Positions 20,962-40,086 of a stretch of 40,193 nucleotides of DNA are shown in pieces. Both the position numbers and the translations under genes were made by a program. The notes under the pieces were generated by a model. That model saw only the letters and a list, made by a program, of their open reading frames with translations, did no database searches and had not been told where the DNA came from. The stretch is from Thauera carbonicopians (lineage in GTDB: Bacteria; Pseudomonadota; Gammaproteobacteria; Burkholderiales; Rhodocyclaceae): NCBI RefSeq assembly GCF_025699485.1, contig NZ_JANUXN010000027.1:1-40193 (forward strand). Reading direction: 5' to 3'. How positions within the stretch are numbered: the first letter of the stretch is position 1; every line of letters begins with the position of its first letter.

Positions 20962-20965
20962 GGTT

Positions 20966-21832: not shown

Positions 21833-21908
21833 GACTGTCCCCCGCCCGGCAGGCACACGCCCGCCGGGACGACAAAGGCTTAGGAATGAAGGATGGAAAG
21901 CCGGACGC

Positions 21909-23191: not shown

Positions 23192-23980
23192 TCACACGAA
23201 GCGGGTGCTGACGCTGCCGAGCGACTGGATGCGCAGGCTGACGTTGTCCCCTGCGGCGACCGACACGGCCTCGGTCACGCCGCCGGACAGGATCATCGTG
23301 CCGGCGGGAATTTCCTCGCCGCGCGCACCCAGGTGGTTGGCCAGGGCCGCGATCGCCGCCGCCGGGTGCCCCAGCACCGCGGCGCCGGCGCCGATCGCGA
23401 CGGGTTCGCCGTTCTTCTCGAGCACCACGCCCAGGGTGCGCAGATCCAGCCCGGCCACGGCGGCCGCCTGGCCGCCGAGCACGAAACGGCTCGACGAGCA
23501 GTTGTCGGCGATCACGCTCTTGAGGTCGAATTTGAAGTCCTTGTAGCGCGAGTCGATGATCTCGATGCCCGGCATGACGAAATCGGTCGCCGCCAGCACG
23601 GCGCCGATGTGGCAGCCCGGCCCCTTCAGCGCGCGCTTGGTGACGAACACGATTTCCGGCTCGACCTTTGGGTGGATCAGCCTGGCGGCCTCGATCTCGC
23701 CGCCGTCGGGCTCGCTGAAATAATCGACCAGCCAGCCGAAGACCGGCGTCTCGACGCCCATCTGCTTCATCTTGCCGCGCGAGGTCAGCCCGGCCTTGAG
23801 GCCGACCACGCGGTTGCCGCGCGCCAGCTTGCGGCGCAGGATCTCGGCCTGGATCGCGTAGGCGTCGCCCCAGTCCATGTCGGGATGGGCCTCGGTGATC
23901 TTCACCACCTCGTGGGCCTGCAGCTCGGCGTTCTCGAGATGTTCGGCAAGCTGCTCGATGGTTTGTTGACTGAGCGTCAT
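23192..23980 (-). CDS. dmpH: 4-oxalocrotonate (2-oxo-3-hexenedioate) decarboxylase, copy 1
   Basis: A 262-residue enzyme of the meta-cleavage pathway, decarboxylating 4-oxalocrotonate to 2-oxopent-4-enoate in complex with the hydratase. The decarboxylase branch is marked by [32 protein letters not shown] with the metal-binding glutamates, KFDLKSVIADNCSSS and [13 protein letters not shown]. These match DmpH/XylI rather than the hydratase. It is 28 bases after dmpE. A second, similar copy lies at 39298-40086. Confidence 0.95.
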   Translation of the reverse strand: MTLSQQTIEQLAEHLENAELQAHEVVKITEAHPDMDWGDAYAIQAEILRRKLARGNRVVGLKAGLTSRGKMKQMGVETPVFGWLVDYFSEPDGGEIEAARLIHPKVEPEIVFVTKRALKGPGCHIGAVLAATDFVMPGIEIIDSRYKDFKFDLKSVIADNCSSSRFVLGGQAAAVAGLDLRTLGVVLEKNGEPVAIGAGAAVLGHPAAAIAALANHLGARGEEIPAGTMILSGGVTEAVSVAAGDNVSLRIQSLGSVSTRFV

Positions 23981-24008: not shown

Positions 24009-24791
24009 TCAGACGAAACGCACCGAGCAGCCGCCGATGCCGCCGATGCTCATGCGCAGGTTGTCGCCCCTGGCGACCGGAACCATCGCGCCCATCGCGC
24101 CCGACAGCACGATGTCCCCGGCCTCGAGCGCGATGCCCAGCCCGCCGAGCATGTTGGCCAGCCACACCATGGCATTGACCGGATGCGCCATGGTCGCGGC
24201 GCCGGCGCCGGTGACGACGATCTCGCCGTTCTTCTCCAGCACCATGCCGGCCAGCGCGAGATCGATGCCGGCGACATCGACCAGTTGGTCGCCGAGCACG
24301 AACACGCCGCACGAGGCGTTGTCGGCCACGGTGTCCTGGATGCGGATCTTCCAGTCCTGGATGCGGGAATCGACGATCTCGAAACAGGCCATCACGCCTT
24401 CGGTGGCGGCCAGCACGTCGGCGGCGGTGACGCCAGGCCCCTGCAGATCGTGCTTGAGCAGGAAGGCGATCTCGCCTTCAGCCTTGGGCTGGATCAGCGA
24501 ATCCATGGAGATGGATTCGCCTTCGTTGTAAACCATGCTGTCGAGCAGGTAGCCGAAGTCCGGCTGATGCACGCCCAGCATGTTCATCACCGCCTTGCTG
24601 GTGACGCCGATCTTCTTGCCGACGACACGCGCGCCCTTTTCCAGCCGGCGCGCGATCATGCGCTGCTGGACGTGGTAGGCGTCCTCGATCGTCATGTCCG
24701 GATGCGCCGCGCTCAGCGGCGCGATCGGCGTGCGCGCGACGAGCGCCTCGTACAGCGCATCGCCCAGCGACTCGATGGTGTTCTGGTCCAT
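24009..24791 (-). CDS. dmpE: 2-oxopent-4-enoate hydratase
   Basis: A 260-residue hydratase (DmpE/XylJ) that adds water to 2-oxopent-4-enoate, giving 4-hydroxy-2-oxovalerate. Distinct from the decarboxylase by VVGKKIGVTSKAVMNMLGV, LIQPKAEGEIAFLLK with metal-binding glutamates, and the GAGAATMAHPVNA segment. The start at 24791 has GAGGAAGG upstream. The gap from the dehydrogenase gene is 11 bases. The hydratase normally forms a complex with the decarboxylase encoded next. Confidence 0.94.
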   Translation of the reverse strand: MDQNTIESLGDALYEALVARTPIAPLSAAHPDMTIEDAYHVQQRMIARRLEKGARVVGKKIGVTSKAVMNMLGVHQPDFGYLLDSMVYNEGESISMDSLIQPKAEGEIAFLLKHDLQGPGVTAADVLAATEGVMACFEIVDSRIQDWKIRIQDTVADNASCGVFVLGDQLVDVAGIDLALAGMVLEKNGEIVVTGAGAATMAHPVNAMVWLANMLGGLGIALEAGDIVLSGAMGAMVPVARGDNLRMSIGGIGGCSVRFV

Positions 24792-24802
24792 GGTGCCCTT
24801 CC

Positions 24803-26263
24803 TCACAGCTTGATGCAGACGTTCTTGAGATCGGTGTAGAACTCGAGCGAGTGCAGGCCGCCCTCACGGCCGATGCCCGACTGTTTGGAGCCACCGAACG
24901 GAGTGCGCAGGTCGCGCAGGAACCAGCTGTTCACCCACGAGATGCCGACTTCCATCTTCTGCGCCACGCGGTTGGCACGCGCCACGTCACGGGTCCAGAT
25001 CGCGGTGGCCAGGCCGTACTTGTTGTCGTTGGCCTTCTCCAGCACTTCCGCTTCGGTGTCGAACGGCGCGATGTGGCAGCAGGGCCCGAAGATCTCTTCC
25101 TTGATCACGCGCGCGGTCTCGGGCAGGCCGGTCCAGATCGTCGGCTGCACCCAGCAGCCGTCCTGCAGTTCGCCGGCCATCTCGGGCACGCCGCCGCCGG
25201 TCACCACCGTGGCGCCCTCTTCCACTGCCAGGCGGCAGTAGGACAGCACCTTCTCCTGGTGCTCCTTGCTGATCAGCGGCCCCATGTCGGTCGCCGCATC
25301 GTCCGGCACGCCGATCTTCATCGCCTCGGCGCCCGCCTTCAGCGCGGCGACGAAGCTGTCGAAGACAGGACGCTCGACATACACCCGCTCGGTGCCCAGG
25401 CAGACCTGGCCGCAGTTGGCGAAGGCCGAGCGCAGCGTGCCTTCGATCGCCGCATCGAAATCGCAGTCGGCAAACACGATCGCCGCATTCTTGCCGCCCA
25501 TTTCCAGCGAAACCGGGCGCGAGCCGATGGCGGCGGCGCGGTTGATGATTTCGCCGGTGCGGGTCTCGCCGGTAAAGGTGATGGCATCGACATCCGGGTG
25601 CGAAGTGACGAATTCGCCCGCCGAGTTCGGGCCGAAGCCATGAACGACGTTGTACACCCCCTTGGGGATGCCGACCTTGTTCATCACTTCGCCCAGCAGC
25701 GCCGCAGTGCGCGGCGTCTCTTCCGAGGGTTTGACCACCACGGTGTTGCCGCAGGCCAGCGCCGGGCCGACTTTCCAGGTCATCAGCAGCAGCGGCAGGT
25801 TCCACGGGCAGATCACGCCGACCACGCCGACCGGACGGCGATAGCCGTAGTTGATGCACGAGCCGCCGTCGGGCGTGGCCATCTCGAAGAATTCGGTGGA
25901 GGCGTTCCTGATCATGTCGGCGAAGACCTTGAAGTTCGCCGCGCCGCGCGGAATGTCGATATGCGCGGCGAGGCTCCGCGGCTTGCCGGTGTCGGCGCAC
26001 TCGGCCGCGAGGAATTCGTCGAAACGGGCATCGATCTCGGCGACCAGGGCTTCGAGCAGCTCGACGCGGCGCGCCAGCGACATCGTTCCCCAGGGGCCTT
26101 TCAGCGCGGCGCGCGCGGCGGCCACCGCGGCATCGACCTCGGCCTTGCCGGCTTCGGCGACCTTGCCGATGACGGTGTTGGAGATCGGCGTCCGGTTGTC
26201 GAACCATTTGTCGGTGGCTACGTACTCGCCGTCGATGAAGTTGAGGATCTTGTCTGCAAGCAT
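24803..26263 (-). CDS. dmpC: 2-hydroxymuconic semialdehyde dehydrogenase
   Basis: A 486-residue NAD-dependent aldehyde dehydrogenase, oxidising the catechol meta-cleavage product to 2-hydroxymuconate. ALDH residues are visible: PWNLPLLLMTWK, FTGETRTGEI, the catalytic glutamate in LEMGGKN and the catalytic cysteine in NCGQVCLG. N-terminal ILNFIDGEYV and the operon position fix it to the DmpC/XylG group. Start 26263 follows GGAGAA. It is 122 bases after catechol 2,3-dioxygenase; a hairpin (26303-26334) lies in the gap. Confidence 0.95.
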   Translation of the reverse strand: MLADKILNFIDGEYVATDKWFDNRTPISNTVIGKVAEAGKAEVDAAVAAARAALKGPWGTMSLARRVELLEALVAEIDARFDEFLAAECADTGKPRSLAAHIDIPRGAANFKVFADMIRNASTEFFEMATPDGGSCINYGYRRPVGVVGVICPWNLPLLLMTWKVGPALACGNTVVVKPSEETPRTAALLGEVMNKVGIPKGVYNVVHGFGPNSAGEFVTSHPDVDAITFTGETRTGEIINRAAAIGSRPVSLEMGGKNAAIVFADCDFDAAIEGTLRSAFANCGQVCLGTERVYVERPVFDSFVAALKAGAEAMKIGVPDDAATDMGPLISKEHQEKVLSYCRLAVEEGATVVTGGGVPEMAGELQDGCWVQPTIWTGLPETARVIKEEIFGPCCHIAPFDTEAEVLEKANDNKYGLATAIWTRDVARANRVAQKMEVGISWVNSWFLRDLRTPFGGSKQSGIGREGGLHSLEFYTDLKNVCIKL

Positions 26264-26385: not shown

Positions 26386-27315
26386 TCAGGTCACCACGCC
26401 CAGGAAGCGGTCGTTGAGCTTGCGGTCGTGGTAGAAGATGCCGGTGCCGACCTCGTCGAAGGTCCAGGTCAGCGGTTGATGGTCGGGGTAGGTCTCGTAG
26501 CCGCCGCAGAAGGTCTCGAAGCGGTTGCCCGACGGATCGAAGGCATAGATCGTGGTGCCGCGGGTGACGCCGTGGCGGGTCGGGCCGATGTCGATCGACA
26601 CCTTGTTCATCGACATGATGTCGGCCGCGCGCAGCACCTGCTCCCAGCTTCCCAGCAGGAAGGACAGGTGATGCAGCCTGCCCGGTTCGGGGTGGCAGAC
26701 GAAGGCCAGATCGTGGGCCTTGTGCGAGCAGGAAATGAAGGTCGCCAGCAGCGCCTCGCCGTCTTCCATCAGGATGCGCTCGACCAAGTGGAAACCCAGC
26801 ACTTCGGTGAAGAGCTTCAGGTTCTCTTCGATGTTCGGGCCGTACAGCAGGCAGTGATCGAAGCGGTGCGGGGCGATGCCGTGCTCGGCTGCAGGGATCC
26901 AGGGATCGGGGTTGGTGTAGGGCTGGCCGTTGCCGACGTCGGTCTTGTCGGCGTACAGCTCCATGACGTGGCCGGTGGGGGTGGTGAAACGCACACGCTC
27001 GCCGGTTTCCAGCAATTCGCCCGCGGGGATGCGCTCGGTGGCGACGCCGTAGGCCTGCAGGTCCTTGTCGAACTGCTCGAGCGTGGCCCTGTCCTTGACC
27101 TTGAAGCCCATCAGGTCCATGCCGGCACGGTCGGCCTGGCGCAGGATCACGCTGTTGTGGTCACGCTCGTCCCAGGCCTTGAAATAGACCCGGCCCTGGG
27201 CATCGCGGCCGGTCTCGACCAGACCGAGCATGTTCTTGTAGAACTCGACGCTTTCGTCGATATCCAGCACGCGCAGCTGGATGTGGCCAGGGCGCATCAC
27301 TCCGGTGGTTGCCAT
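26386..27315 (-). CDS. xylE: Catechol 2,3-dioxygenase
   Basis: A 309-residue extradiol dioxygenase opening catechol to 2-hydroxymuconic semialdehyde. It has the XylE/DmpB start VMRPGHIQLRVLD. The non-haem iron ligands are His154 (RFDHCL), the His pair at 215-216 (RLHHLSF) and Glu267 (GNRFETF). The conserved segment IDIGPTRHGVTRG precedes the last ligand. Start 27315 follows GAGGAG; the open frame continues upstream over the ferredoxin gene but is not homologous. It lies 128 bases after the xylT-type gene that should keep its iron reduced. Confidence 0.96.
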   Translation of the reverse strand: MATTGVMRPGHIQLRVLDIDESVEFYKNMLGLVETGRDAQGRVYFKAWDERDHNSVILRQADRAGMDLMGFKVKDRATLEQFDKDLQAYGVATERIPAGELLETGERVRFTTPTGHVMELYADKTDVGNGQPYTNPDPWIPAAEHGIAPHRFDHCLLYGPNIEENLKLFTEVLGFHLVERILMEDGEALLATFISCSHKAHDLAFVCHPEPGRLHHLSFLLGSWEQVLRAADIMSMNKVSIDIGPTRHGVTRGTTIYAFDPSGNRFETFCGGYETYPDHQPLTWTFDEVGTGIFYHDRKLNDRFLGVVT

Positions 27316-27443: not shown

Positions 27444-27848
27444 TCAGGCGCAGACCTTCTTCTTCATCTTTCCCAGTACCGCCAGGCGGATGTCCGACAG
27501 CGGTTTCACCCGGCAGGCCAGCACGATGCCGGCGCCCTCCTCCTCGGCGCTGACATGCTCCCTGCTCATCGCCCGCGCGCAGAAGGCGCCGGATTCGATC
27601 CGCACCTTGCACACCCCGCAGCCGCCGCCGCGGCAGCCCACCGGGATGCCGCACTTGCCGAGCCGCTCCATGCCGGCCAGCAGGGTTTCATGCTCGCCGC
27701 AGCGGAACGCTTCGCCGGTGTCGGCGACCGTCACCGCGAAGTAGGTCCTTGCGGCGGCTGTCGCCTCGGCCTCCCGCCGGGCCGCGCCAAGGGCGGCCTG
27801 TTCCCCCTCGGCGGGCGTCGCAGCTATCGAGCGCGGGAGCCGTTCCAT
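27444..27848 (-). CDS. xylT: XylT-type [2Fe-2S] ferredoxin
   Basis: A 134-residue plant-type ferredoxin. The cluster ligands are Cys72-X4-Cys77-X2-Cys80 (GCRGGGCGVC) and Cys112. The C-terminal part VKPLSDIRLAVLGKMKKK matches XylT/DmpQ, which re-reduce oxidised iron of catechol 2,3-dioxygenase. It is longer than usual XylT by an alanine-rich N-terminal extension of about 30 residues; no better internal ATG with a ribosome site is seen, though the first Met is only one base after the oxidoreductase stop. The tight join to a ferredoxin-reducing enzyme is unusual. Confidence 0.88.
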   Translation of the reverse strand: MERLPRSIAATPAEGEQAALGAARREAEATAAARTYFAVTVADTGEAFRCGEHETLLAGMERLGKCGIPVGCRGGGCGVCKVRIESGAFCARAMSREHVSAEEEGAGIVLACRVKPLSDIRLAVLGKMKKKVCA

Positions 27849-27849
27849 C

Positions 27850-30800
27850 TCAGGCCACCTGCCGTTCCTGCTGCGGTTCGAGGAAAGCCTTCATCCGCTC
27901 GGCCTGCAGCTCGCGGGCGAGGACAACGCTCTTTTCCTTGACGTGGCCATAGCCACGGATCTCCTCCGGCACACTGGCCAGGGCCACCGCAGCGGCGTGG
28001 TTGGCTGGGGTAAGCCGGGCGAGGATCTGCTCCAGCAAGACGATGTAGTCCTCGATCAGTTGGCGTTCCATGCGGCGCTCGGCAGCCTTGCCGAACACAT
28101 CCAGCGCGGAGCCGCGCAAGCGCTTCAGGCCTGCCAGACGCTTGAAAGCCTTGAACATCCACGCCCCGTACTGCTTCTTCTGCAGATGGCCGGTGGCGGG
28201 GTCGGTCTTGGCCAGCAGCGGCGGCGCCAGGTTGTATTTCACCGAGTAGCCGTGCGGGAACTGCGCATCCAGCTCGGCCAGGAAAGCCGGGGCGGTATGC
28301 AGGCGGGCGACTTCGTATTCGTCCTTGTAGGCCATCAGCTTGTACAGCTGGCGGGCGGCGGCCTCGGACAGCGCGCTGCCGGAGGCGGCGCGCTGCTCGG
28401 CGGCGACGACACGCTGGATGACTTCGGCGTAGCGCCTGGCGTAGGCCTCGTCCTGGAACGCGATCAGCTCGGGCACGCGGACTTCGGCCAGACGCTTCAC
28501 CTCGCCTTCGGCGACGATCGAATCGACGATGGCTCGCGCCGCAGGCGACAGCTGCGGCCGCCGGTGCAGGGTGATCACCGTGCCGCCGCTGGCCAGCCGC
28601 GCCGCTTCGGCTTCGACGAAGGCGCGATCGACCACCGCCAGGCGGCCCCAGCGGAACGCGGCCAGGCTCATGTCGACCGCCACGCCCGACTGGCGGATGG
28701 CTTCTTCGATCGATTCCGCCTGCAGCGGGATGGTGCCCGCCTGGAAAGCGACGCCGACCATGAAGTTGTTGGTCGCCATGGCATCGCCGAACAGGCCCTC
28801 GGCCAGCGCCTGGCCGTCGAGGAAGACGTTGTCCGCCGTGCGCGTGACGCGGTCGATGCCCGCACTCAGGCCGCCGACGGCCGGAAACAGCGTCTTGCGG
28901 TTGGCCACCATCTGTCCGGTCGGCGTCTCCGTGGTCGATACCACCGCGATCGTGCGGTCCGGGCTGCACTTGTCCAGGTTCTTGGGGTCGGTGGCATTGA
29001 GGATGTCGAAACCCAGGTAGAGGTCGGCGCGGCCGTCCGAGATCTTGTTCGAGCCCTTGAACGGCGCATGGGTGATCTTGATGTCGGAGATCACCGCGCC
29101 GCCCTTCTGCGCCAGGCCGGTCTGATCGAGGCCGATCACGTGCTTGCCCTCGAGACGCGCGGCCTTGGCCAGCGTCGCCACCACCGTGACCGAACCCGTG
29201 CCGCCGATGCCCATGACGTGGATGCCGACGCCGATCGTGTCATCCACTTTTTTCGGCGGCACCGGCAGTTCTCGCTCGAACACCGGGATGCGCCCTTTCC
29301 GGCGCTTCGGCGCATCCTCGGCAGCCGGTGCGGGATTCGGCGTGATCGTCAGGAAAGACGGACAGAAGCCTTTCACACAGCTGTAGTCCTTGTTGCACGA
29401 GGACTGATGGATGCGGGTCTTGCGGCCGAACTCGGTGTGCACCGGCTCGACGCTCATGCAGTTCGAGACCTCGCCGCAATCGCCGCAGCCTTCGCACACA
29501 CGCTCGTTGATGACGACGACTTCGGCCGGCTCCTCGGCCCTGCCCCGGCTGCGCGCCCGGCGCAGCTCCGCCGCGCACTCCTGGTCGTGCAGCAGCACGG
29601 TGGTGCCCGGCGTCGCTGCCAGCACGCGCTGGGCCTCGTCGAGGCGGTCGCGGTGCCAGACCTCGGTGCCGCCGGGCAGGCTCACCGCATTGAAGCGCGA
29701 CGGATCGTCGGTGGTGACGATGATCTTCCTGACCCCGTTGGCCAGCAGCTCGGACACCATGCCGGTCACCGGCGCCTCGCCCTGGATGGCCTGGCCGCCG
29801 GTCATCGAAGTGTGGGCGTTGCGCAGCAGCTTGAAGGTGATGTTGACCCCGGTCGAGGCCGCATAGCGGATCGCCAGGCTGCCCGAGTGCGCATAGGTGC
29901 CGTCGCCCATGTTCTGGAAGATGTGCTGCGCCTCGGTGAAGGGTGCCATGCCGATCCACTGCGTGCCCTCTGCGCCCATGTGGGTGCCCATGACCACGTT
30001 GCGCCCCATCCACATCGCCATCGTGTGGCAGCCGATGCCGGCCGACACGATGCTGTCGTCGACCGCCTTCGTCGAACTGTTGTGCGGACAGCCCGAGCAG
30101 TACCAGGCGGTGCGCACCGCGGTCGGCAGCTTGCTGCGCGAGTGGATTTCGTCCAGACGCGCGAGCCAGTTCTCCGCCGACTCGATGCGCGTCTTGCGCG
30201 ACAGGCGCTTCAACAGCGCACGCACCAGGGTGTCGGACTCGAACTCGCCGTAGTGCGGCAGCAGCTCCTTGTCTTCCTCGTCGAACTTGCCGACGATGCG
30301 CGGCGCGTTGGCCATGCCGTACAGCACCTGCTTGGCGAACATCTCGAGGAAGGGACGCTTTTCCTCGATGACGAAGATCTCTTCCAGCCCCTGCGCGAAC
30401 TCGCGCACGATGCTCGGCTCCATCGGGAACAGCATGCCCATCTTCAGCACGCGGATGCCGTGGCGGCGCAGCGCCGCATCGTCCAGCCCCATCTCCAGGA
30501 AAGCCTGGTTGAGGTCGCCGTAGGTCTTGCCCGCGGTGATGATGCCGATCCAAGCATCGGGGTTGGGGAAGACGATGTCGTTCAGCCGGTTGGCGCGGGC
30601 ATAGCGCCTGGCGACCTCGAGGCGGCGGGTGTACAGCGACTGTTCCATTTCCAGCGCCTCGGCGCGCACGTTCATACCCAGGTTCATGCTGGGCATGAAC
30701 GGCTTGCCGTCGAATTCGAGATCGGGCGTGACGAACTTCAGCCGCTCGGGCGAGATACAGGCGGTGCCGGTGCTGTCGGCGACATTGGTGACGATCTTCA

Positions 30801-31392
30801 TCCCCACCCACAGGCCGGCCAGGCGCGACATCCGGTAGCCATGCAGGCCGTAATCGAGAATCTCCTGCACGTTGCCCGGGTACAGCGATGGAATGCCGAC
30901 GTGATAGAGCATCGGCTCGGACTGCGAGCACAGCGACGAGCTCTTGCAACTCGGATCGTCGCCGGCAATCGCCAGCACGCCGCCATTCCTGCCGATGCCG
31001 GTGTAGTTGGCGTGCTTGAGCGCATCACCCGAGCGGTCCACGCCCGGCGCCTTGCCGTACCACATGCCGGTGACGCCGTCGAACTTCTGCCTGCCGACGG
31101 TATGCAGCATCTGCGTGCCCCACACCGCGGTGGCGGCCAAGTCCTCGTTGATGCCATCGACGAAGTGGATGTGATGCTCGAGCAACAGCTTCTGCTGGCG
31201 GATCAGCGCCGCATCGAGCATGCCCACCGGCGAACCGCGGTAGCCGGACACGAACATGCCGGTCTTCAGCCCGCGGCGCGCGTCGGTGCGCACCTGGTCG
31301 AGCGTCAGGCGGACGATGGCGTCGATGCCGCCGAGATGGATATCGCCTTCTTCCTGGGTGAATGCGTTGAGCGTCTTCTTGCCCGATGACAT
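27850..31392 (-). CDS. Fused 2-oxoacid (indolepyruvate-type) ferredoxin oxidoreductase
   Basis: A 1180-residue fusion of the IorA and IorB chains. Residues 1-410 are the pyrimidine-binding and linker part (GYRGSPVGMLD at 50-60). Residues 430-600 are the ThDP domain, with CSGCPHNSS at 432 and GDGTY at 496. A cysteine-rich Fe-S segment follows (CEGCGDCGEVSNC from 633, then CNKDYSCVKGFC). Residues 720 to the end are the gamma-type domain with GIGGTGSVTVVATLA. The family oxidises 2-oxoacids, often arylpyruvates, to acyl-CoA while reducing ferredoxin. Its substrate here is unknown. The start at 31392 follows GAGGAA. It is the first gene of the leftward meta operon and lies under XylS-type boxes. 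Confidence 0.9.
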   Translation of the reverse strand: MSSGKKTLNAFTQEEGDIHLGGIDAIVRLTLDQVRTDARRGLKTGMFVSGYRGSPVGMLDAALIRQQKLLLEHHIHFVDGINEDLAATAVWGTQMLHTVGRQKFDGVTGMWYGKAPGVDRSGDALKHANYTGIGRNGGVLAIAGDDPSCKSSSLCSQSEPMLYHVGIPSLYPGNVQEILDYGLHGYRMSRLAGLWVGMKIVTNVADSTGTACISPERLKFVTPDLEFDGKPFMPSMNLGMNVRAEALEMEQSLYTRRLEVARRYARANRLNDIVFPNPDAWIGIITAGKTYGDLNQAFLEMGLDDAALRRHGIRVLKMGMLFPMEPSIVREFAQGLEEIFVIEEKRPFLEMFAKQVLYGMANAPRIVGKFDEEDKELLPHYGEFESDTLVRALLKRLSRKTRIESAENWLARLDEIHSRSKLPTAVRTAWYCSGCPHNSSTKAVDDSIVSAGIGCHTMAMWMGRNVVMGTHMGAEGTQWIGMAPFTEAQHIFQNMGDGTYAHSGSLAIRYAASTGVNITFKLLRNAHTSMTGGQAIQGEAPVTGMVSELLANGVRKIIVTTDDPSRFNAVSLPGGTEVWHRDRLDEAQRVLAATPGTTVLLHDQECAAELRRARSRGRAEEPAEVVVINERVCEGCGDCGEVSNCMSVEPVHTEFGRKTRIHQSSCNKDYSCVKGFCPSFLTITPNPAPAAEDAPKRRKGRIPVFERELPVPPKKVDDTIGVGIHVMGIGGTGSVTVVATLAKAARLEGKHVIGLDQTGLAQKGGAVISDIKITHAPFKGSNKISDGRADLYLGFDILNATDPKNLDKCSPDRTIAVVSTTETPTGQMVANRKTLFPAVGGLSAGIDRVTRTADNVFLDGQALAEGLFGDAMATNNFMVGVAFQAGTIPLQAESIEEAIRQSGVAVDMSLAAFRWGRLAVVDRAFVEAEAARLASGGTVITLHRRPQLSPAARAIVDSIVAEGEVKRLAEVRVPELIAFQDEAYARRYAEVIQRVVAAEQRAASGSALSEAAARQLYKLMAYKDEYEVARLHTAPAFLAELDAQFPHGYSVKYNLAPPLLAKTDPATGHLQKKQYGAWMFKAFKRLAGLKRLRGSALDVFGKAAERRMERQLIEDYIVLLEQILARLTPANHAAAVALASVPEEIRGYGHVKEKSVVLARELQAERMKAFLEPQQERQVA

Positions 31393-31492: not shown

Positions 31493-31498
31493 AGATTA
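31493..31498 (-). promoter_or_regulatory. Predicted -10 element of the leftward (oxidoreductase/meta) promoter
   Basis: TAATCT on the - strand begins 21 bases after the proximal XylS-type box, the same spacing as on the other side. Predicted transcript start is near 31486, giving a leader of about 95 bases to the start codon at 31392. Inferred by symmetry with the benA promoter. Confidence 0.5.
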
Positions 31499-31519
31499 GG
31501 GGCAGCGGAGGGGCAGAAA

Positions 31520-31556
31520 TATCCAGTTCCTGCACGAGTGCTATCCGCTTTGTGCA
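31520..31556 (-). promoter_or_regulatory. Tandem XylS/BenR boxes for the leftward operon
   Basis: Two - strand copies of TGCA-N6-GGATA: TGCACAAAGCGGATA (31556 down to 31542) and TGCAGGAACTGGATA (31534 down to 31520), spaced 22 bases start to start. This is the known half-site arrangement of XylS at the TOL Pm promoter and of BenR at ben promoters. The pair is the mirror image of the benA pair. Confidence 0.85.
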
Positions 31557-31569
31557 CCCGGGCCCGCGC

Positions 31570-31606
31570 TGCACAGACTGGATAGCGATGCTGCAAGAAG
31601 TGGATA
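31570..31606 (+). promoter_or_regulatory. Tandem XylS/BenR boxes for benABCD
   Basis: Two + strand copies of TGCA-N6-GGATA: TGCACAGACTGGATA (31570-31584) and TGCAAGAAGTGGATA (31592-31606), 22 bases apart start to start. The second differs from the distal Pm half-site, as I recall it, at one position. The AraC-type regulator at 35730-36710 is the obvious binder. Confidence 0.88.
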
Positions 31607-31627
31607 TTTCACGCCTTTCGTCATCCC

Positions 31628-31633
31628 TAGGAT
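31628..31633 (+). promoter_or_regulatory. Predicted -10 element of the benA promoter
   Basis: TAGGAT starts exactly 21 bases after the end of the proximal box, as does TAGGCT in the TOL Pm promoter from memory. Predicted transcript start is near 31640, about 33 bases before the benA start chosen here, which also argues against an upstream start at 31643. Confidence 0.6.
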
Positions 31634-31672
31634 GCGAACTCCATGCTGCAAACGACACTGGAGACTCTGGCG

Positions 31673-33001
31673 ATGATCACTACGGAATATCTGGACTCAC
31701 TGATTCAGAAGGACAAGGGAAAAGGGCTTTTCCGCTGCAAGCGGGAGATGTTCACCGACAGGGAGCTGTTCGAGCTCGAAATGAAGCACATCTTCGAGAA
31801 CAACTGGATCTATCTCGCCCACGAGAGCCAGTTGCCGAAGATCAACGACTACTACACCACCAAGATCGGCCGCCAGCCGGTGTTCATCACCCGCAACAAG
31901 GACAATCAGCTCAACTGTTTCATCAACTCCTGCGCCCACCGCGGCGCCACGCTGGCGCGCTTCAAGCACGGCAACAAGGGCAGCTTCACCTGCCCCTTCC
32001 ACGGCTGGACCTTCAACAACTCGGGCAAGCTGCTCAAGATCAAGGACCCCACCGAGACCGGCTACCCGGACAGCTTCAACTGCAAGGGCTCGCACGATCT
32101 GAAGAAAATCGCGCGCTTCGAGTCCTACCGCGGCTTCCTGTTCGGCAGCCTGAACCCGGACGTGCAGTCGCTGGAAGATTTCCTCGGCGAATCGAAAATC
32201 ATCATCGACATGATCGTCGACCAGTCCCCCGAAGGCCTGGAAGTGCTGCGCGGCGCCTCGAGCTATGTCTATGAGGGCAACTGGAAGCTGCAGGCCGAGA
32301 ACGGCGCCGACGGCTACCACGTCACCGCCACGCACTGGAACTACGCGGCAACCCAGGCGCAGCGCAAGAGCCGCGACTCGGGCGACGACATCAATGCGAT
32401 GAGCGCGGGCGGCTGGGCCAAGAAGGGCGGCGGCTCCTACTCGTTCGAGAACGGCCACCTGCTGTTGTGGACCCGCTGGGACAACCCCGAAGACCGCCCG
32501 CTGATGGAGCAGCGCGAGCGCCTGGTCGAGGAATTCGGCGAAGCGAAGGCCGACTGGATGATCTGCAATTCGCGCAACCTGTGCCTGTATCCGAACGTTT
32601 ACCTGATGGACCAGTTCAGCTCGCAGATCCGCGTGTTCCGTCCGCTCGACGTCAACCGCACCGAAGTCACCATCTACTGCATCGCGCCCAAGGGCGAATC
32701 GGCTGAAGCCCGCGCCCGCCGCATCCGCCAGTACGAAGACTTCTTCAACGCCTCGGGCATGGCCACGCCGGACGATCTGGAAGAGTTCCGTGCCTGCCAG
32801 GAAGGCTTCATGGGCCGTGCGCTGGAATGGAACGACATGTCGCGCGGCGCCGAGCACTGGATCGAGGGCCCGGACGACGAAGCCGACAAGATCGGGCTCA
32901 AGCCCATCCTGTCGGGAGTGAAGACCGAGGACGAAGGCCTCTACGTCGCCCAGCACAGCTACTGGCTCGAGCAGATGCGCGAAGCGATCGCAGCCAGGTG
33001 A
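31673..33001 (+). CDS. benA: Benzoate 1,2-dioxygenase, large subunit
   Basis: A 442-residue Rieske oxygenase alpha subunit. The Rieske centre is Cys87-X-His89 (NSCAHRGA) and Cys107-X2-His110 (TCPFHGW). The mononuclear iron site shows Asp213, His216 and His221 ([12 protein letters not shown]). Long stretches such as [28 protein letters not shown] and [13 protein letters not shown] are those of BenA/XylX rather than anthranilate or salicylate oxygenases. With BenB and BenC it forms the cis-dihydrodiol of benzoate. The ATG at 31673 has GGAG nine bases upstream. First gene of the rightward operon. Confidence 0.96.
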
Positions 33002-33027: not shown

Positions 33028-33516
33028 ATGCATATTTCCTACGAAAACCTGTGCGCCTTCCTGTACCGCGAAGCCCGTTATCTGGACGATCGCGACTGGG
33101 ACAGCTGGCTGGCGCTGTACGACGAGAACTGCACTTTCTGGATGCCCGCCTGGGACGACGACGGCGAACTGACCGAAGACCCGCAAAGCGAAATCTCGCT
33201 GATCTGGTACGGCCGCCGCGCCGGCCTCGAAGACCGCGTGTTCCGCATCCGCACCGAACGCTCGAGCGCGACCATTCCCGACACACGCACGAACCACCAC
33301 CTGAGCAACATCGAAGTGCTCGAGCAGGACGGGCAGACGGTCAAGCTGCGCTTCAACTGGCACACGATGAGCGTGCGCTACAACCACACCGATCACTTCT
33401 GCGGGACGAGTTTCTACACCCTGGACGTGTCGGGCGGGCAGCCGATCATCCGCGAGAAGAAAGTCGTGCTCAAGACCGACTACATCCGCCACGTCATCGA
33501 CGTGTATCACATCTGA
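33028..33516 (+). CDS. benB: Benzoate 1,2-dioxygenase, small subunit
   Basis: A 162-residue beta subunit of the NTF2-like fold. It has LYREARYLDDRDWDSWLALY near the N-terminus, FWMPAWDDD, and the RTERSSATIPDTRTNH segment of BenB/XylY. It has no cofactor and supports the alpha subunit trimer. Start 33028 has GGAG upstream, 26 bases after the benA stop. Confidence 0.95.
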   Translation: MHISYENLCAFLYREARYLDDRDWDSWLALYDENCTFWMPAWDDDGELTEDPQSEISLIWYGRRAGLEDRVFRIRTERSSATIPDTRTNHHLSNIEVLEQDGQTVKLRFNWHTMSVRYNHTDHFCGTSFYTLDVSGGQPIIREKKVVLKTDYIRHVIDVYHI

Positions 33517-33610: not shown

Positions 33611-34621
33611 ATGACATTCAAGATCGCCCTGAATTTCGAGGACGGCGTCACCCGCTTCATCGACTGCAACGCTTCGGAAACCGTAGCCGATGCCGCCTAC
33701 CGCCAGGGCGTCAACGTGCCCATCGACTGCCGCGACGGCGCCTGTGGCGCCTGCAAGTGCAAGGCCGAGTCCGGCCAGTACGAACTGGGCTTCTACATCG
33801 ACGACGCGATGAGCGAGGAAGAGGCGGGCCTGGGCTACGTCCTCACCTGCCAGATGCTCCCCAGGAGCGACTGCGTCGTGAACGTGCCGGCCTCGTCCGA
33901 CGTGTGCAAGATCAGGCAGGCAACCCTGAGCGCAGCGGTGGACGAGGTGCGCCAGCTCTCCCCCAGCACCATCAGCCTGGTGCTGCAGGGCCAGGGCATC
34001 GGCAAGCTCGCCTTCCTGCCCGGCCAGTACGCCAACCTCGAAGTGCCCGGCACCACCCAGACCCGCGCCTACTCGTTCAGCTCGATGCCCGCCGAAGGCA
34101 AGGTCGCGTTCCTGATCCGCAACGTGCCCGACGGCCTGATGAGCGGCTACCTCACCGAGCGCGCCCGCGCCGGCGACACGATCAAGCTCGCCGGCCCGAT
34201 CGGCAGCTTCTACCTGCGCGACGTCGTCCGCCCGGTGCTGATGCTCGCCGGCGGCACCGGCCTCGCCCCCTTCCTCGCGATGCTGGACAAGCTCGTGGCC
34301 CAGGGCGGCAGCGCCCACCCGGTCCACCTGATCTACGGCGTCAATACCGATGCCGACGTCGTCGCCCTCGACCGTCTGGACGCCTTCAAAGCCGCCCTGC
34401 CCAATTTCAGCTACGAAGTCTGCGTGGTTGCCGACGACAGCACCTGGCCGAAGAAGGGCTACGTCACCGCTCACATCGAACCCGTCCACCTCAACGGCGG
34501 CGAGGTCGACATCTACCTGTGCGGCCCGCCGCCGATGGTCGAGGCCGTTGCCCATGACCTGCGTGCACGCGGGATCGAACCCAGGAGCTTCCACTACGAG
34601 AAATTCGCCGCCAGCGTCTGA
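33611..34621 (+). CDS. benC: Benzoate 1,2-dioxygenase, reductase component
   Basis: A 336-residue electron-transfer protein passing electrons from NADH through FAD and a [2Fe-2S] cluster to BenAB. Order: plant-type ferredoxin domain (cluster Cys40, Cys45, Cys48, Cys80; DCRDGACGACKC), FAD domain with RAYSFSS, and NAD domain with LMLAGGTGLAPFLAML. Layout equals BenC/XylZ. Start 33611 has GGAGACGACC just before it; 94 bases separate it from benB. Confidence 0.95.
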   Translation: MTFKIALNFEDGVTRFIDCNASETVADAAYRQGVNVPIDCRDGACGACKCKAESGQYELGFYIDDAMSEEEAGLGYVLTCQMLPRSDCVVNVPASSDVCKIRQATLSAAVDEVRQLSPSTISLVLQGQGIGKLAFLPGQYANLEVPGTTQTRAYSFSSMPAEGKVAFLIRNVPDGLMSGYLTERARAGDTIKLAGPIGSFYLRDVVRPVLMLAGGTGLAPFLAMLDKLVAQGGSAHPVHLIYGVNTDADVVALDRLDAFKAALPNFSYEVCVVADDSTWPKKGYVTAHIEPVHLNGGEVDIYLCGPPPMVEAVAHDLRARGIEPRSFHYEKFAASV

Positions 34622-34643: not shown

Positions 34644-35423
34644 ATGCCTAACCGTTTCAGGAACAAGGTCGCGGTCATCACCGGCGCCGCGCAGGGCATC
34701 GGCAAGCGCGTCGCCGAGCGCATCGCCGAGGAAGAAGGCACGCTGGTGCTGGTCGACCGCTCGGAGATCGTCCATGAGGTCGCCGATGCCCTCGCGCAGA
34801 AGAAGACCGACGTTCTCGGCCTGACCGCCGACCTCGAGAAATTCGCCGAATGCCAGCGCGTCATGGACGCGGCCGTCGCCCGGTTCGGCCGCATCGACAT
34901 CCTCGTGAACAATGTCGGCGGCACGATCTGGACCAAGCCCTACGAGCATTACGCCGAGCACGAGATCGAAGCCGAAGTGCGCCGCTCGCTGTTCCCCACG
35001 CTGTGGTGCTGCCGCGCGGCCCTGCCGCACATGCAGGCGCAAGGCAAGGGCGCGATCGTCAATGTGTCGTCGATCGCCACCCGCGGCGTCAACCGCGTGC
35101 CCTATGGCGCGGCCAAAGGCGGGGTGAACGCCCTGACGGCCTGCCTGGCGCTGGAGAACGGTGAGCGCGGCATCCGCGTCAATGCCACCGCGCCGGGTGC
35201 GACCGAGGCCCCGCCGCGCCGCGTGCCGCGCAATACGCAGGAACAAAGCGCGCAGGAAAAGCGCTGGTACGAGCAGATCTACACCCAGTCGCTCGACAGC
35301 AGCCTGATGAAGCGCTACGGCACGCTCGACGAGCAAGCCGCCCCCATCCTGTTCCTTGCCTCCGACGACGCAGCCTACATCACCGGCACGGTGCTGCCGG
35401 TGGGCGGTGGCGACATGGGCTGA
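34644..35423 (+). CDS. benD: Benzoate cis-diol dehydrogenase
   Basis: A 259-residue short-chain dehydrogenase that oxidises and decarboxylates the benzoate cis-diol to catechol. The NAD site is VITGAAQGIG; the catalytic serine and YxxxK appear in NVSSIATRG and VPYGAAKGG. RVPRNTQEQ-type residues near 190 and the C-terminal ITGTVLPVGGGDMG match BenD/XylL. Start 34644 has AGGAG upstream, 22 bases after benC. A terminator ends the operon. Confidence 0.94.
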   Translation: MPNRFRNKVAVITGAAQGIGKRVAERIAEEEGTLVLVDRSEIVHEVADALAQKKTDVLGLTADLEKFAECQRVMDAAVARFGRIDILVNNVGGTIWTKPYEHYAEHEIEAEVRRSLFPTLWCCRAALPHMQAQGKGAIVNVSSIATRGVNRVPYGAAKGGVNALTACLALENGERGIRVNATAPGATEAPPRRVPRNTQEQSAQEKRWYEQIYTQSLDSSLMKRYGTLDEQAAPILFLASDDAAYITGTVLPVGGGDMG

Positions 35424-35570: not shown

Positions 35571-35729
35571 CGAAATTACTGAATATCTCGATAATTTTTC
35601 CCATAAGAAGCCGGAATCACCCAGCCCAGGACAAGGCGCCAGACCATCCCCTGGAGGAGAGGAGAAGGAAATGACGAACGAAGGTGTGCCGCAGGCACAT
35701 TCGCCCACATCGCCCCGGAGGGCCGCGTG

Positions 35730-36710
35730 ATGTCCCTCCAGTTCCTGAACGGCAGCAGCAAGGTCTTCGCCGCGGCGAATCCTTTCGAAGTCTCCGAATA
35801 CGTGCGTGCCAATGTCGGCACGCACAGCCTGCGGCTGTCCAACGCCGGCCATGCCAGCGCCTCACTCAGCCACCGCCGCGCCGGCATGCTGGACCTGTGC
35901 CGCCTGCGCTACGGCGCCCAGGCGCGCATCCTCTCCGAGGGCCTGGGGGACATCTACCATGCCCAATTCATCCTGCACGGGCATTGCCGCTATACCTTGG
36001 CCAATACCTCGCTCGACCTGTCCGCAGGCCATGTACTAGTCATCAATCCGGACGAGCCCATCGATCTCACCTATTCGGACGACTGCGAGAAGTTCATCCT
36101 GCGGATTCCATCGCCGATGCTGGACGATGCCTGTGCCGAGCACCGCTGGTTCAAACCCAACGAGAGCATCAAGTTCAGCCAGGTGCCGCACAAGTTCGAG
36201 GACATCGACAGCCTGCTGATGCTGCTGAAACTGCTGTGCGAAGAGGCCGAATCGGACCTCGCCACGCCGCAGATGCTGCAGCACTACAACCAGGTGGTGA
36301 CGACCAAGCTGATGGTCATGCTCAAACACAACGTCAGCATGATCACCCCGACCCGGCATGCGCCCAGCTTCGAACGCCTGAGCAACTACATCGAGCGCAA
36401 CATCAAGCTCGAACTCAGCGCCGAACAACTCGCGCAGCATGCCGGGCTCAGCCTGCGCTCGCTGTACATGCTGTTCGAGAAGAACGCCAGAACCACGCCC
36501 AAGAACTACGTTCGCCAGAAGAAGCTGGAACGGGTGCACGCCGTGCTGAGCGATCCGCAGCAGCCCTGTCCGAACGTCACCGCGGTGGCGCTCGAATACG
36601 GCTTCACCCATCTCGGCCGGTTCTCCGAACTCTACAAGTCCACATACGGTGTGCTGCCTTCGCAATCGATCCGCTGCCGCCAGCCATCATCGAAAGAAGC
36701 GAGCAAATGA
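35730..36710 (+). CDS. benR: AraC/XylS-family activator, BenR type
   Basis: A 326-residue regulator. The N-terminal about 200 residues are the ligand-binding and dimerisation part. The C-terminal AraC DNA-binding domain (about 210-315) shows SAEQLAQHAGLSLRSLYMLF and TPKNYVRQKKLERVH, close to XylS and BenR, then ALEYGFTHLGRFSELYKSTYG. GTG 35727 and ATG 35730 are both possible starts; ATG has the better spacing to GGAGG. The effector should be benzoate. Its sites are the four boxes at 31520-31606. Its stop overlaps the next start by 4 bases. Confidence 0.9.
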   Translation: MSLQFLNGSSKVFAAANPFEVSEYVRANVGTHSLRLSNAGHASASLSHRRAGMLDLCRLRYGAQARILSEGLGDIYHAQFILHGHCRYTLANTSLDLSAGHVLVINPDEPIDLTYSDDCEKFILRIPSPMLDDACAEHRWFKPNESIKFSQVPHKFEDIDSLLMLLKLLCEEAESDLATPQMLQHYNQVVTTKLMVMLKHNVSMITPTRHAPSFERLSNYIERNIKLELSAEQLAQHAGLSLRSLYMLFEKNARTTPKNYVRQKKLERVHAVLSDPQQPCPNVTAVALEYGFTHLGRFSELYKSTYGVLPSQSIRCRQPSSKEASK

Positions 36711-37111
36711 GCATCGAACGCCTGGCAATCAATCCCCCCGAACTGTTCTCCGGCAAGGCTTTCAGCCAGACCTTCTCCATCCGCGGCCACGATCGGCTGA
36801 TCTTCGTATCCGGCCAGGTCGACTGCGACGCGGACGGCAAGGTTCGTCATCCGGACGATCTCGAAGCGCAGCTCGAGGGCACGCTCGACAACCTCGACAT
36901 CGCCTTGCGCGCCCAAGGCGCCAGCATGCGCGACCTGGTCGCGGTGACGATCTACGTGGTCGGCCTGCAGCCCGAACAGACCGCCCGCATCCGTGAAATC
37001 CGCTCTGCCTATTTCGACCCGGAGCGCCCGCCCGCAGTCACCTTGCTGGGTATCGAACGCCTGGCTTTCCCGGGCCTGCGTGTCGAGGTCGACATCATCG
37101 CGGCACAGTAA
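36707..37111 (+). CDS. RidA/YjgF-family protein, without the canonical arginine
   Basis: A 134-residue RidA-like trimer-forming protein, with FVSGQVDCDADGKV and LVAVTIYVVGLQPEQ. Canonical RidA enamine/imine deaminases have an arginine in the ARS motif near residue 105; here the equivalent stretch is PPAVTLLGIERLAFPG, with valine in its place. It therefore belongs to a divergent Rid group with unproven activity. 2-Aminomuconate deaminases of meta pathways are also in this superfamily. The start is the ATGA overlap with the benR-type stop, and benE follows after 6 bases. Confidence 0.85.
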   Translation: MSIERLAINPPELFSGKAFSQTFSIRGHDRLIFVSGQVDCDADGKVRHPDDLEAQLEGTLDNLDIALRAQGASMRDLVAVTIYVVGLQPEQTARIREIRSAYFDPERPPAVTLLGIERLAFPGLRVEVDIIAAQ

Positions 37112-37117
37112 GCAACG

Positions 37118-38350
37118 GTGACCGCACACCTCGAACGTCCGGCCGGGCCTGCGCCCGGCTGGCGGCAACTGTTCGCCGACCTCGGCCCCGGCTACCTGGC
37201 CAACGGCCTGATCGGCTTCATCTTCTCCGCGACCGGCCCAGTGGCGATCATTCTCGCGGTCGGCATGCACGGCGGACTGACACAGGCAGAGCTGGCATCC
37301 TGGGTGTTCGGCGTATTTTTCGTCAACGGCCTGATCACCCTGGCGATGAGCTGGCGGTACCGGATGCCGCTCGGTTTCGCCTGGACGATTCCCGGCACGG
37401 TGCTGGTAGGGCCGGCACTACAGCACCTGAGCTTCGCCGAAGTGATCGGCGCGTTCTACGCCACCGGCGTGGTCGTGCTGCTGATGGGCCTGAGCGGCTG
37501 GGTCAAGCGCTTCATACAGGCGCTGCCGATGCCGATCGTCATGGGCATGGTCGCTGGCGTCTTCCTGCGCTTCGGCCTCGATCTGGTGCGCGCCCTCCAT
37601 AGCGACATCGCGATCGCAGGTCCGATGGTCATCGCCTTCCTGCTGCTGTCGGCGGTTCCGGCAATGGGCCGGCGCCTGCCGCCGATCATCGGCGCGCTGC
37701 TCGCCGGCGCAGCGGTCATGGCTCTCTTCGGCAGAGTCGGCTTCGACGCACTCGGCAGCCTCGGCGTGGCACAGCCGGTCATGCAGGCTCCAGCCTGGTC
37801 GCTCGCCGCCATGGTCGAACTCGTGGTCCCGCTGGCCATCACCGTGCTGGTGGTGCAGAACGGCCAAGGCGTCGCCGTGCTGAAATCGGCCGGGCACGAG
37901 CCTCCGGTCAACACCATCGCCACCGTATGCGGCATCGGCAGCCTGTTGGCTGCCGCCGTCGGCGCCGTCAGCACCTGCCTGACCGGCCCCACCAACGCAC
38001 TCCTCACCTCATCGGGCGAACGCGGGCGCCATTACATCGGCGCCCTGGGGTTCGGAGTCCTCGCCATGTCGTTCGGTCTGATGGCACCGATGTTTACCGG
38101 CCTGATGCTGGCAGCGCCGGCCGCGTTCATCATGGTGCTCGGCGGCCTGGCGATGCTGAGGGTGCTGCAAGGCGCCTTCCTCGCTTCGTTCAGCGGCATG
38201 TTCTCGCTCGGTGCCCTGATCAGCTTCCTCGTCACCGTCGCCGACATCGGACTGTTCAACATCGGCTCCGCCTTCTGGGGGCTGCTGGCGGGCGTGACCG
38301 TATCCTGGCTGCTGGAAAGACAGGACTTCGCCAGGGCAGCGAAAGGCTGA
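37118..38350 (+). CDS. benE: Benzoate:H+ symporter BenE
   Basis: A 410-residue, 12-helix permease of the BenE family. Segments such as GYLANGLIGFIFSATGPVA, MPLGFAWTIPGT and QNGQGVAVLKSAG are characteristic, as is ISFLVTVADIGLFNIG near the end. It imports benzoate with a proton. The start is GTG at 37118, 6 bases after the RidA stop, with no strong ribosome site, so translation is probably coupled. It is the third gene of the regulator transcript. Confidence 0.93.
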   Translation: MTAHLERPAGPAPGWRQLFADLGPGYLANGLIGFIFSATGPVAIILAVGMHGGLTQAELASWVFGVFFVNGLITLAMSWRYRMPLGFAWTIPGTVLVGPALQHLSFAEVIGAFYATGVVVLLMGLSGWVKRFIQALPMPIVMGMVAGVFLRFGLDLVRALHSDIAIAGPMVIAFLLLSAVPAMGRRLPPIIGALLAGAAVMALFGRVGFDALGSLGVAQPVMQAPAWSLAAMVELVVPLAITVLVVQNGQGVAVLKSAGHEPPVNTIATVCGIGSLLAAAVGAVSTCLTGPTNALLTSSGERGRHYIGALGFGVLAMSFGLMAPMFTGLMLAAPAAFIMVLGGLAMLRVLQGAFLASFSGMFSLGALISFLVTVADIGLFNIGSAFWGLLAGVTVSWLLERQDFARAAKG

Positions 38351-39053: not shown

Positions 39054-39245
39054 TCAGCGCCCCAGGTCCTTGGCCGAGACGCCGCCGATCCCCCAGTTGG
39101 TCTTCGGCACTTCGTTGATCATGACCCGCACGCTCTGCTGGGGTGCATCCAGCGCCTCGACCAGTGCCTGGGTGACTTTCTCGATGACGGCACGCTTCTG
39201 CTCCTCGCTGCGGCCTTCGAGGATGTTGATCTGCGCAAATGGCAT
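39054..39245 (-). CDS. dmpI: 4-oxalocrotonate tautomerase
   Basis: A 63-residue 4-OT subunit, converting 2-hydroxymuconate to 4-oxalocrotonate. After loss of Met, Pro1 is the catalytic base (PFAQINILEGR); Arg11 and Arg39 (SVRVMI) are conserved. The usual Phe50 is Trp here (NWGIGG). Start 39245 has GGGAG upstream; an upstream in-frame ATG at 39275 would hide Pro1. It lies 52 bases after the second decarboxylase gene. Confidence 0.95.
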   Translation of the reverse strand: MPFAQINILEGRSEEQKRAVIEKVTQALVEALDAPQQSVRVMINEVPKTNWGIGGVSAKDLGR

Positions 39246-39297: not shown

Positions 39298-40086
39298 TCA
39301 CTTGAAACGCACGGATACCGAGCCGAGGCCCTGCACCCGCAATGTGACGTCGTCGCCCGGCTGCACGGCCACGGCCTCGGTGATGCCGCCGGACAGGATC
39401 AGCGACCCGGCCGGGATCTCCTCGCCGCGCTCGCCCAGCATGTTCGCCAGCATCGCCACCGCCGCGGCGGGATGGCCGAGCACCGCCGCCCCGGCACCGA
39501 AGGCCACCGGCTCGCCATTCTTCTCCAGCACGATGCCGGTGGTGCGCAGGTCGACATCGGCGACGCCGGCCATGCTGCCGCCGACGACGAAACGGCTCGA
39601 CGAGCAGTTGTCGGCGACGACGCTCTTCAGGTCGAACTTGAAGTCGCGGTAGCGGCTGTCGATGACCTCGATGGCCGGGATGACGAAATCGGTGGCGGCG
39701 AGCACGGCGCCGATGTGGCAGCCCGGCCCGCGCAGCGGCGCCTTGGTGACGAAGGCGATCTCGGGCTCGACCTTGGGATGGATCAGCTTCGAGGTGTCGA
39801 TCTCGCTGCCTTCGGGCACGCTGAAGTAATCCACCAGGAAACCGAACACCGGCGTCTCGACGCCCATCTGCTTCATCTTGGCATGCGAGGTCAGCCCGGC
39901 CTTGAGGCCGATGACGCGGTTGCCGCGAGCGATCTTGCGGCGCTTGATCTCGTCCTGGATGGCGTAGGCGTCGTCCCAGTCCATGTCGGGATGGTCGTCG
40001 GTGATCTTGGGCGTATCCTTCGCTTCCAGTTCGCAGGTCTCGAGGTGATCGGCCAGGCGATCGATGGTTTCGCGCGACAGTTTCAT
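39298..40086 (-). CDS. dmpH: 4-oxalocrotonate decarboxylase, copy 2
   Basis: A 262-residue enzyme, colinear with the copy at 23192-23980 and about three quarters identical by eye. The same marks are present: [47 protein letters not shown] and [13 protein letters not shown]. The start overlaps the dmpG stop (ATGA), the standard order dmpG-dmpH-dmpI. This copy sits in the canonical lower-pathway setting, whereas copy 1 is in the BenR-type operon. Confidence 0.95.

Follow-up and report, generated by a model that had tools for sequence, protein, structure and literature searches.

Back-to-back Pm-type promoters predicted to place benzoate oxidation and catechol meta-cleavage under one BenR-type activator in Thauera

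The benABCD genes of Thauera carbonicopians diverge from genes for a 2-oxoacid:ferredoxin oxidoreductase, catechol meta-cleavage and ABC-type uptake, and the two groups are separated by four exact BenR/XylS-type boxes set as two head-to-head tandem pairs (Table 1). We analyzed this divergon in a 40,193-nucleotide stretch of DNA (hereafter the window), in the rest of the genome, and in other genomes. We consider it highly probable that the divergon consists of two back-to-back class-II (Pm-type) promoters through which BenR and benzoate switch both operons together. According to this model, benzoate-bound BenR encoded in the cluster (35730–36710) would sit on the tandem boxes of each side, with the proximal box beside the −35 region and the distal box upstream, and would recruit RNA polymerase to both −10 elements, from which we predict the transcription start sites. 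The rightward output would be BenABCD, which turns benzoate into catechol, and the leftward output would be the oxidoreductase, an XylT-like ferredoxin, catechol 2,3-dioxygenase, the later meta-pathway steps, and ABC uptake. Catechol-making enzymes, catechol-cleaving enzymes, and uptake would then appear simultaneously.

Table 1. Features of the ben/meta divergon and its neighboring genes (window coordinates)
Feature	Coordinates	Strand	Sequence, evidence or remark
Branched-chain/urea-type ABC transporter: binding protein (21909–23081), permeases, two ATPases	18517–23081	-	
2-oxo-3-hexenedioate decarboxylase	23192–23980	-	TIGR03218, over cut-off
FAA-hydrolase-family enzyme, probable 2-oxopent-4-enoate hydratase	24009–24806	-	PF01557; specific name inferred
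2-hydroxymuconic semialdehyde dehydrogenase	24803–26263	-	TIGR03216, over cut-off
Catechol 2,3-dioxygenase (homologous part)	26386–27303	-	TIGR03211, 455 bits vs 320
XylT-like [2Fe-2S] ferredoxin (ORF, start approximate)	27444–27848	-	PF00111; name XylT inferred from place and size
2-oxoacid (indolepyruvate-type) ferredoxin oxidoreductase, 1180 aa, first leftward gene	27850–31392	-	NF009589, 1598 bits; POR and DUF6537 domains
Candidate −10, leftward promoter	31493–31498	-	TAATCT; 21 bp from proximal box
Leftward proximal BenR/XylS-type box	31520–31534	-	TGCAGGAACTGGATA; exact match
Leftward distal box	31542–31556	-	TGCACAAAGCGGATA; exact match
Spacer across dyad, between inner boxes	31557–31569	.	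13 bp; unconserved sequence
Rightward distal box	31570–31584	+	TGCACAGACTGGATA; exact match
Rightward proximal box	31592–31606	+	TGCAAGAAGTGGATA; exact match
Candidate −10, rightward promoter	31628–31633	+	TAGGAT; 21 bp from proximal box
benA, benzoate 1,2-dioxygenase large subunit	31673–33001	+	TIGR03229, 887 bits vs cut-off 781
benB	33028–33516	+	TIGR03232, over cut-off; start set by eye
benC	33611–34621	+	NF040810, over cut-off
benD	34644–35423	+	NF040811 and NF009463, over cut-off
AphS-like palindrome upstream of benR	35583–35596	.	2 mismatches to AAATmTCGAkATTT
BenR/XylS-type AraC-family regulator	35730–36710	+	AraC_binding_2 and HTH_18
RidA/YjgF-family protein	36707–37111	+	PF01042; overlaps benR stop
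BenE-type benzoate transporter	37118–38350	+	PF03594; TIGR00843, 168 bits, under cut-off 203

A preliminary description of this DNA had reported four copies of TGCA-N6-GGATA, and a pattern search of the window recovered all four as exact matches where it had placed them. The geometry it had claimed holds as well: the boxes repeat every 22 bp in both the leftward and the rightward pair, and the distance from proximal box to −10 is the same in both directions. Its imperfect inverted repeat near 31563 is the strongest in the window, with 46 of 70 positions matching between 70-base arms (rank 1 of 80,104 window centers), and both the boxes and the −10 hexamers are mirror-symmetric around that point. 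The divergent promoter pair fits in less than 150 bp; such a compact two-way promoter, probably benzoate-inducible, could be put to use as a bidirectional expression element.

Single boxes with at most one mismatch occur 13 times in the 40-kb window against 4.64 expected, a count reached by none of 100 shuffles, and only the four boxes of the divergon are exact, the nine others having one mismatch. The tandem arrangement is far rarer. Allowing two mismatches, TGCA-N6-GGATA-N7-TGCA-N6-GGATA matched twice across the T. carbonicopians genome (4,524,829 bases in 48 contigs), both times exactly and both times at this divergon, and a control pattern read backwards gave no match in the same 4.5 Mb.

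On the rightward side, each of benA–benD exceeded the cut-off of its own NCBIfam equivalog profile. The benA start at 31673, which follows the Shine-Dalgarno sequence GGAGAC (ATGATCAC), is better placed than the first in-frame ATG at 31643. The leftward genes also include hemerythrin-type ORFs and, from their strand and spacing, appear to form one transcript; the start codon of catechol 2,3-dioxygenase probably sits a few codons upstream of the homologous part. We considered a strict link between the oxidoreductase and XylT, in which electrons would serve to re-reduce catechol 2,3-dioxygenase, but did not uphold it because in one related locus (L062) the next recognized gene is catechol 2,3-dioxygenase; XylT comes after the oxidoreductase in two others (L050 and L058). 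A second oxidoreductase copy, 46% identical to the 27850–31392 protein, lies elsewhere in the genome. A second 2-oxo-3-hexenedioate decarboxylase gene at 39298–40086 flanks the ben genes together with the one at 23192–23980, both above the equivalog cut-off, and a tautomerase-like ORF occupies 39057–39245.

The cluster encodes a single strong candidate for the activator. Over 98% of its length the regulator shares 46.1% of its residues with pWW0 XylS and up to 47.5% with the XylS proteins of other Pseudomonas plasmids, and the next-best AraC-family protein of the genome shares 30% identity with it, with no other close one. Both helix-turn-helix motifs align to XylS without gaps, and in the first recognition helix one residue differs, M in place of N (LRSLYMLFEK in the window, PRSLYNLFEK in XylS), at a position that presumably matters in XylS. 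Among curated NCBIfam equivalogs the regulator reached no cut-off (the best was AndR, 112 bits against 350), and the name BenR therefore rests on XylS similarity, gene context, and the boxes.

Each half of the divergon resembles Pm, the XylS-dependent promoter of pWW0, in its tandem TGCA-N6-GGNTA boxes, in the 21-bp distance between proximal box and −10 (TAGGCT in pWW0, which we take to be the −10 of Pm), and in its XylS-like activator, and the rightward half would, like Pm, drive a benzoate/toluate dioxygenase; benABC sits directly downstream of Pm. The window differs in that it is read in two directions rather than one and has a box repeat of 22 rather than 21 bp. Pm drives xylXYZ and then the meta genes as a single operon, and Pu is the XylR-driven promoter of the upper pathway. 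The preliminary description had set the window against a separate Pu/Pm logic of TOL plasmids, a contrast that we find overstated and misdirected given the upper-pathway role of Pu; the arrangement in the window splits the logic of Pm into two divergent transcripts rather than altering it.

A 21-bp repeat is found in pWW0 Pm and in plasmid promoters of P. nitroreducens and P. luteola, and its exact GGNTA form occurs in one of 29 Thauera genomes (G008), where it precedes the gene for a 79% identical BenA by about 80 bp. We treat repeat spacing as variation rather than as a defining feature of a Pm/Pben-type promoter; P. fluorescens differs too, with Pben boxes separated by 5 bp (a 20-bp repeat; PMC1360089) as against 7 bp in the window. 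In the Pseudomonas Pben systems (P. putida, P. fluorescens), tandem boxes likewise precede benA and the activator is of the BenR type, and inactivation of benR in P. fluorescens abolishes Pben activity; in these systems benR precedes benA and is read in the same direction, and the sections of PMC1360089 on this promoter describe no divergent meta operon. The XylS mechanism as outlined in PMC5481539 involves a proximal and then a distal monomer, DNA bending, and benzoate derivatives as effectors. A literature search by titles and abstract openings of open-licence papers found no experimental study of the promoter in the window.

A co-activation divergon is already known as a prediction. In their treatment of BenR, Suvorova and Gelfand (2019; PMC6449761) predicted, for Thauera sp. 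MZ1T and Dechloromonas aromatica RCB, BenR-controlled benABCD together with a divergent operon of a COG4231 oxidoreductase, aphQ (Thauera only), aphBCEH, a benzoate ABC transporter, and a COG3945 gene. The window matches that divergon, by the COG numbers of that paper, in having benABCD divergent from an oxidoreductase/meta operon with an ABC transporter and BenR-type sites for both operons. The published divergon comes from other species, and its description in those sections gives neither the four-box mirror geometry nor the gap nor exchanges of the left partner. That one activator serves both operons, as the preliminary description had proposed, is supported by the comparison of regulators, the Pm-like layout, the recurrence of the arrangement, and the left genes, and BenR co-activation of both operons is very likely on these comparative grounds; its novelty does not stand, since PMC6449761 had predicted it. 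What we add is the exact geometry, the exchangeable leftward partners, and an alternative AphS-type wiring.

The preliminary description had called for a comparison of this intergenic region across Rhodocyclales, and in the wider set that we used the mirror arrangement recurs in 27 distinct units (identical core sequences merged, the window included). Within the genus of the window, 20 of 29 genomes contain the tandem pair (22-bp repeat, at most two mismatches), and the reversed control pattern matched none of the 29. Twelve of the 20 have the head-to-head arrangement and six have a single pair at benA only (G011, G015, G016, G018, G020, and G021); of the remaining two, G026 carries a lone pair in front of an MFS-transporter-like gene and G004 a weak match without benA. 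One genome, G013, carries the head-to-head divergon plus, at L009, a separate benA locus with a single pair. Of 297 genomes sampled from the family, 11 had a match at up to one mismatch, and the reversed control gave 1 match. Weak matches without benA nearby were set aside before counting (G004/L005 with two mismatches, G256/L032 with one, and a two-mismatch match in G024).

A scan of genome_contigs (84,980 species) for three exact boxes with a 10–40 gap, whose counts are thus lower bounds, returned 20 loci. Nineteen are betaproteobacterial by name (Thauera, Dechloromonas, Azonexaceae, Zoogloea, Zoogloeaceae, Azoarcus, Comamonas, Oxalobacteraceae, and one "Betaproteobacteria bacterium") and one is titled only "Proteobacteria bacterium"; none of the matching records is titled D. 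aromatica. The fourth box, which the search pattern did not include, is exact or has a single mismatch in all 20 loci. With these units, the 2019 prediction gains about 25 further cases.

Since the units were found through their boxes, box conservation is partly a selection effect, and the −10 elements and gene content, which played no part in finding them, speak most strongly for a functional leftward promoter. All 27 units have TAnnAT as the right −10, 21 bp from the proximal box. The left −10 reads TAATCT or TAACCT at 21 bp in 23 units, lies at 22 bp in three, and is degraded in one (L053), whose lack of a good left −10 indicates that the leftward promoter may be dispensable in some loci. 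In all 27 units benA flanks one side, and the first left gene recognized by comparison with the proteins of the window is the oxidoreductase in 13, catechol 2,3-dioxygenase in seven, XylT in four, and an ABC binding protein in three (Comamonas). Parts of the ABC transporter adjoin the divergon also in L034, L044, L046, L056, L057, L060, and L061. The leftward cargo thus varies between lineages while the promoter stays.

In the three Comamonas mirror divergons (L056, L057, and L060) the left partner is an ABC transporter. In the BenA tree these three nest among Thauera sequences (fork 86/49; grouped with the window and L048 at 96/83), a placement compatible with transfer between families.

The gap between the two pairs is 13 bp in 21 of the 27 units, 11, 12, and 14 bp once each, 43 bp once, and 44 bp twice; the long variants came from the search of Thauera genomes, as the gap of 10–40 required in the genome_contigs scan could not yield them. 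Gap sequence is close to random, with a mean pairwise identity of 0.316 among the 21 units with a 13-bp gap. This near-constant length with unconserved sequence suggested that the four boxes might form one cooperative operator, in which two BenR dimers touch or share an upstream alpha-CTD contact and the promoters fire only together, and we tested that possibility. By parsimony on the BenA tree, gap length changes six times over 13 bp (perhaps five, as L019 is placed by just 48 residues) and the −10-to-ATG length 12 times over about 38 bp, on a shallow tree in which 6 of 24 inner branches are starred and the rows for L014, L019, and L026 hold 48–67 residues. A special length constraint on the 13-bp gap is therefore unsupported, with no excess over the neighboring leader. 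The long gaps exceed the usual one by 30–31 bp, close to three helical turns, as a cooperative operator might require, but they all come from the genus of the window and may reflect a single event; helical phasing of one likely event would arise by chance roughly 3 times in 10, and we do not count it as evidence.

The layout of the window also speaks against cooperation. The inner TGCA motifs lie 17 bp apart, about 1.6 turns, which would place the two dimers on different faces of the DNA, and the spacer, with G or C at 13 of 13 positions, has a base composition unlike an UP element. We regard a single cooperative operator as distinctly improbable, and the two promoters probably act as independent Pm-like units set close together. 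A broader form of the idea, a single cooperative four-box BenR switch that competes within the lineage with AphS-type control of the divergent meta operon, also seems unlikely to us; if true, the species of Thauera would amount to natural experiments in how one divergon is rewired.

The second wiring is seen in the single-pair benA loci of Thauera (L008, L009, L011–L013, L015, and L016). These share with the window a 22-bp BenR-type pair upstream of benA and divergent meta-pathway genes, but in none of the seven did a search tolerant of two mismatches find a BenR pair facing left. Instead, all seven contain an AphS-type palindrome that departs from the consensus AAATmTCGAkATTT (PMC6449761) at one position or none; it lies on the side of the BenR pair that faces the meta-pathway genes, 161–169 bases upstream of the pair. 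The divergent meta proteins are also more distant from those of the window (catechol 2,3-dioxygenase at 54–57% in six loci, semialdehyde dehydrogenase at 68% in L009). From the motif, we propose that the meta genes of these loci are regulated by AphS. Neighboring ben and meta operons are thus wired in two ways inside a single genus, and G013 has both wirings in its genome.

These loci bear on a further reading of the window, that the rightward pair alone works, its leftward counterpart being left over from an inverted duplication, with the leftward operon under another regulator such as an AphS-type repressor that senses phenol or meta intermediates. The seven single-pair loci indicate that meta genes beside ben can run without BenR, and in the BenR and AphS predictions of PMC6449761 the D. 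aromatica divergon is under AphS besides BenR. Against a relic, conservation across genera extends to the fourth box and the left −10, both of which lay outside the search pattern, and an AphS-type palindrome (up to two mismatches, within the 396–481 bases that precede the right pair) occurs in none of the 27 mirror units. A wider scan that included the right flank gave one two-mismatch match in the 27, overlapping a BenR box in L059, and a search for an AphS site inside the mirror divergon of the window found none. We judge the relic reading very unlikely. Finally, that the boxes are an artefact of chance or composition has a practically negligible probability: the nine one-mismatch boxes of the window show that single boxes arise by chance, but genome-wide uniqueness of the tandem pair, the empty reversed control, and the same gene pair flanking the boxes in 27 distinct units rule this out. 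Two Pm-type promoters under one BenR are thus the reading we retain, which for general biology is a tidy, ordinary example of co-regulation.

Further exact BenR-type pairs lie upstream of an MFS-transporter-like gene in five Thauera loci (L020, L021, L040, L041, and L042). The encoded protein, whose family we called by eye, carries "GLVFDGYDLVVYGAVLPG" in most of them and is probably a benzoate transporter of the same BenR regulon. In three of the five (L020, L021, and L042) an AphS-type palindrome is present as well, and a semialdehyde dehydrogenase gene runs in the divergent direction.

AphS-like palindromes also occur upstream of benR. At up to three mismatches the window holds two matches to the AphS-type pattern against 0.85 expected, a count that 23 of 100 shuffles reach and that is not significant on its own. 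Across ten loci, the 250 bases preceding benR contain such a palindrome in six at up to two mismatches and in all ten at up to three. These sites agree with the cascade laid out in the AphS predictions of PMC6449761, in which AphS controls benR and Thauera benR shares an operon with a COG251 (RidA) gene.

The same upstream region contains a short leader ORF of 18–20 codons that begins 58–59 bases before the benR start codon (35671–35730 in the window). It is found in the window and in L045, L048, L049, L051, L052, L054, and L059, and is absent in L053; in eight of the nine distinct mirror-divergon benR genes examined, its stop lies no more than five bases from the benR start. We found no leader ORF at the equivalent place before xylS of pWW0 or before its homologs in G008 and P. 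luteola. A Shine-Dalgarno-like stretch precedes most of the benR leader ORFs and the leader peptide itself is unconserved, and the position of the ORF suggests translational coupling of benR.
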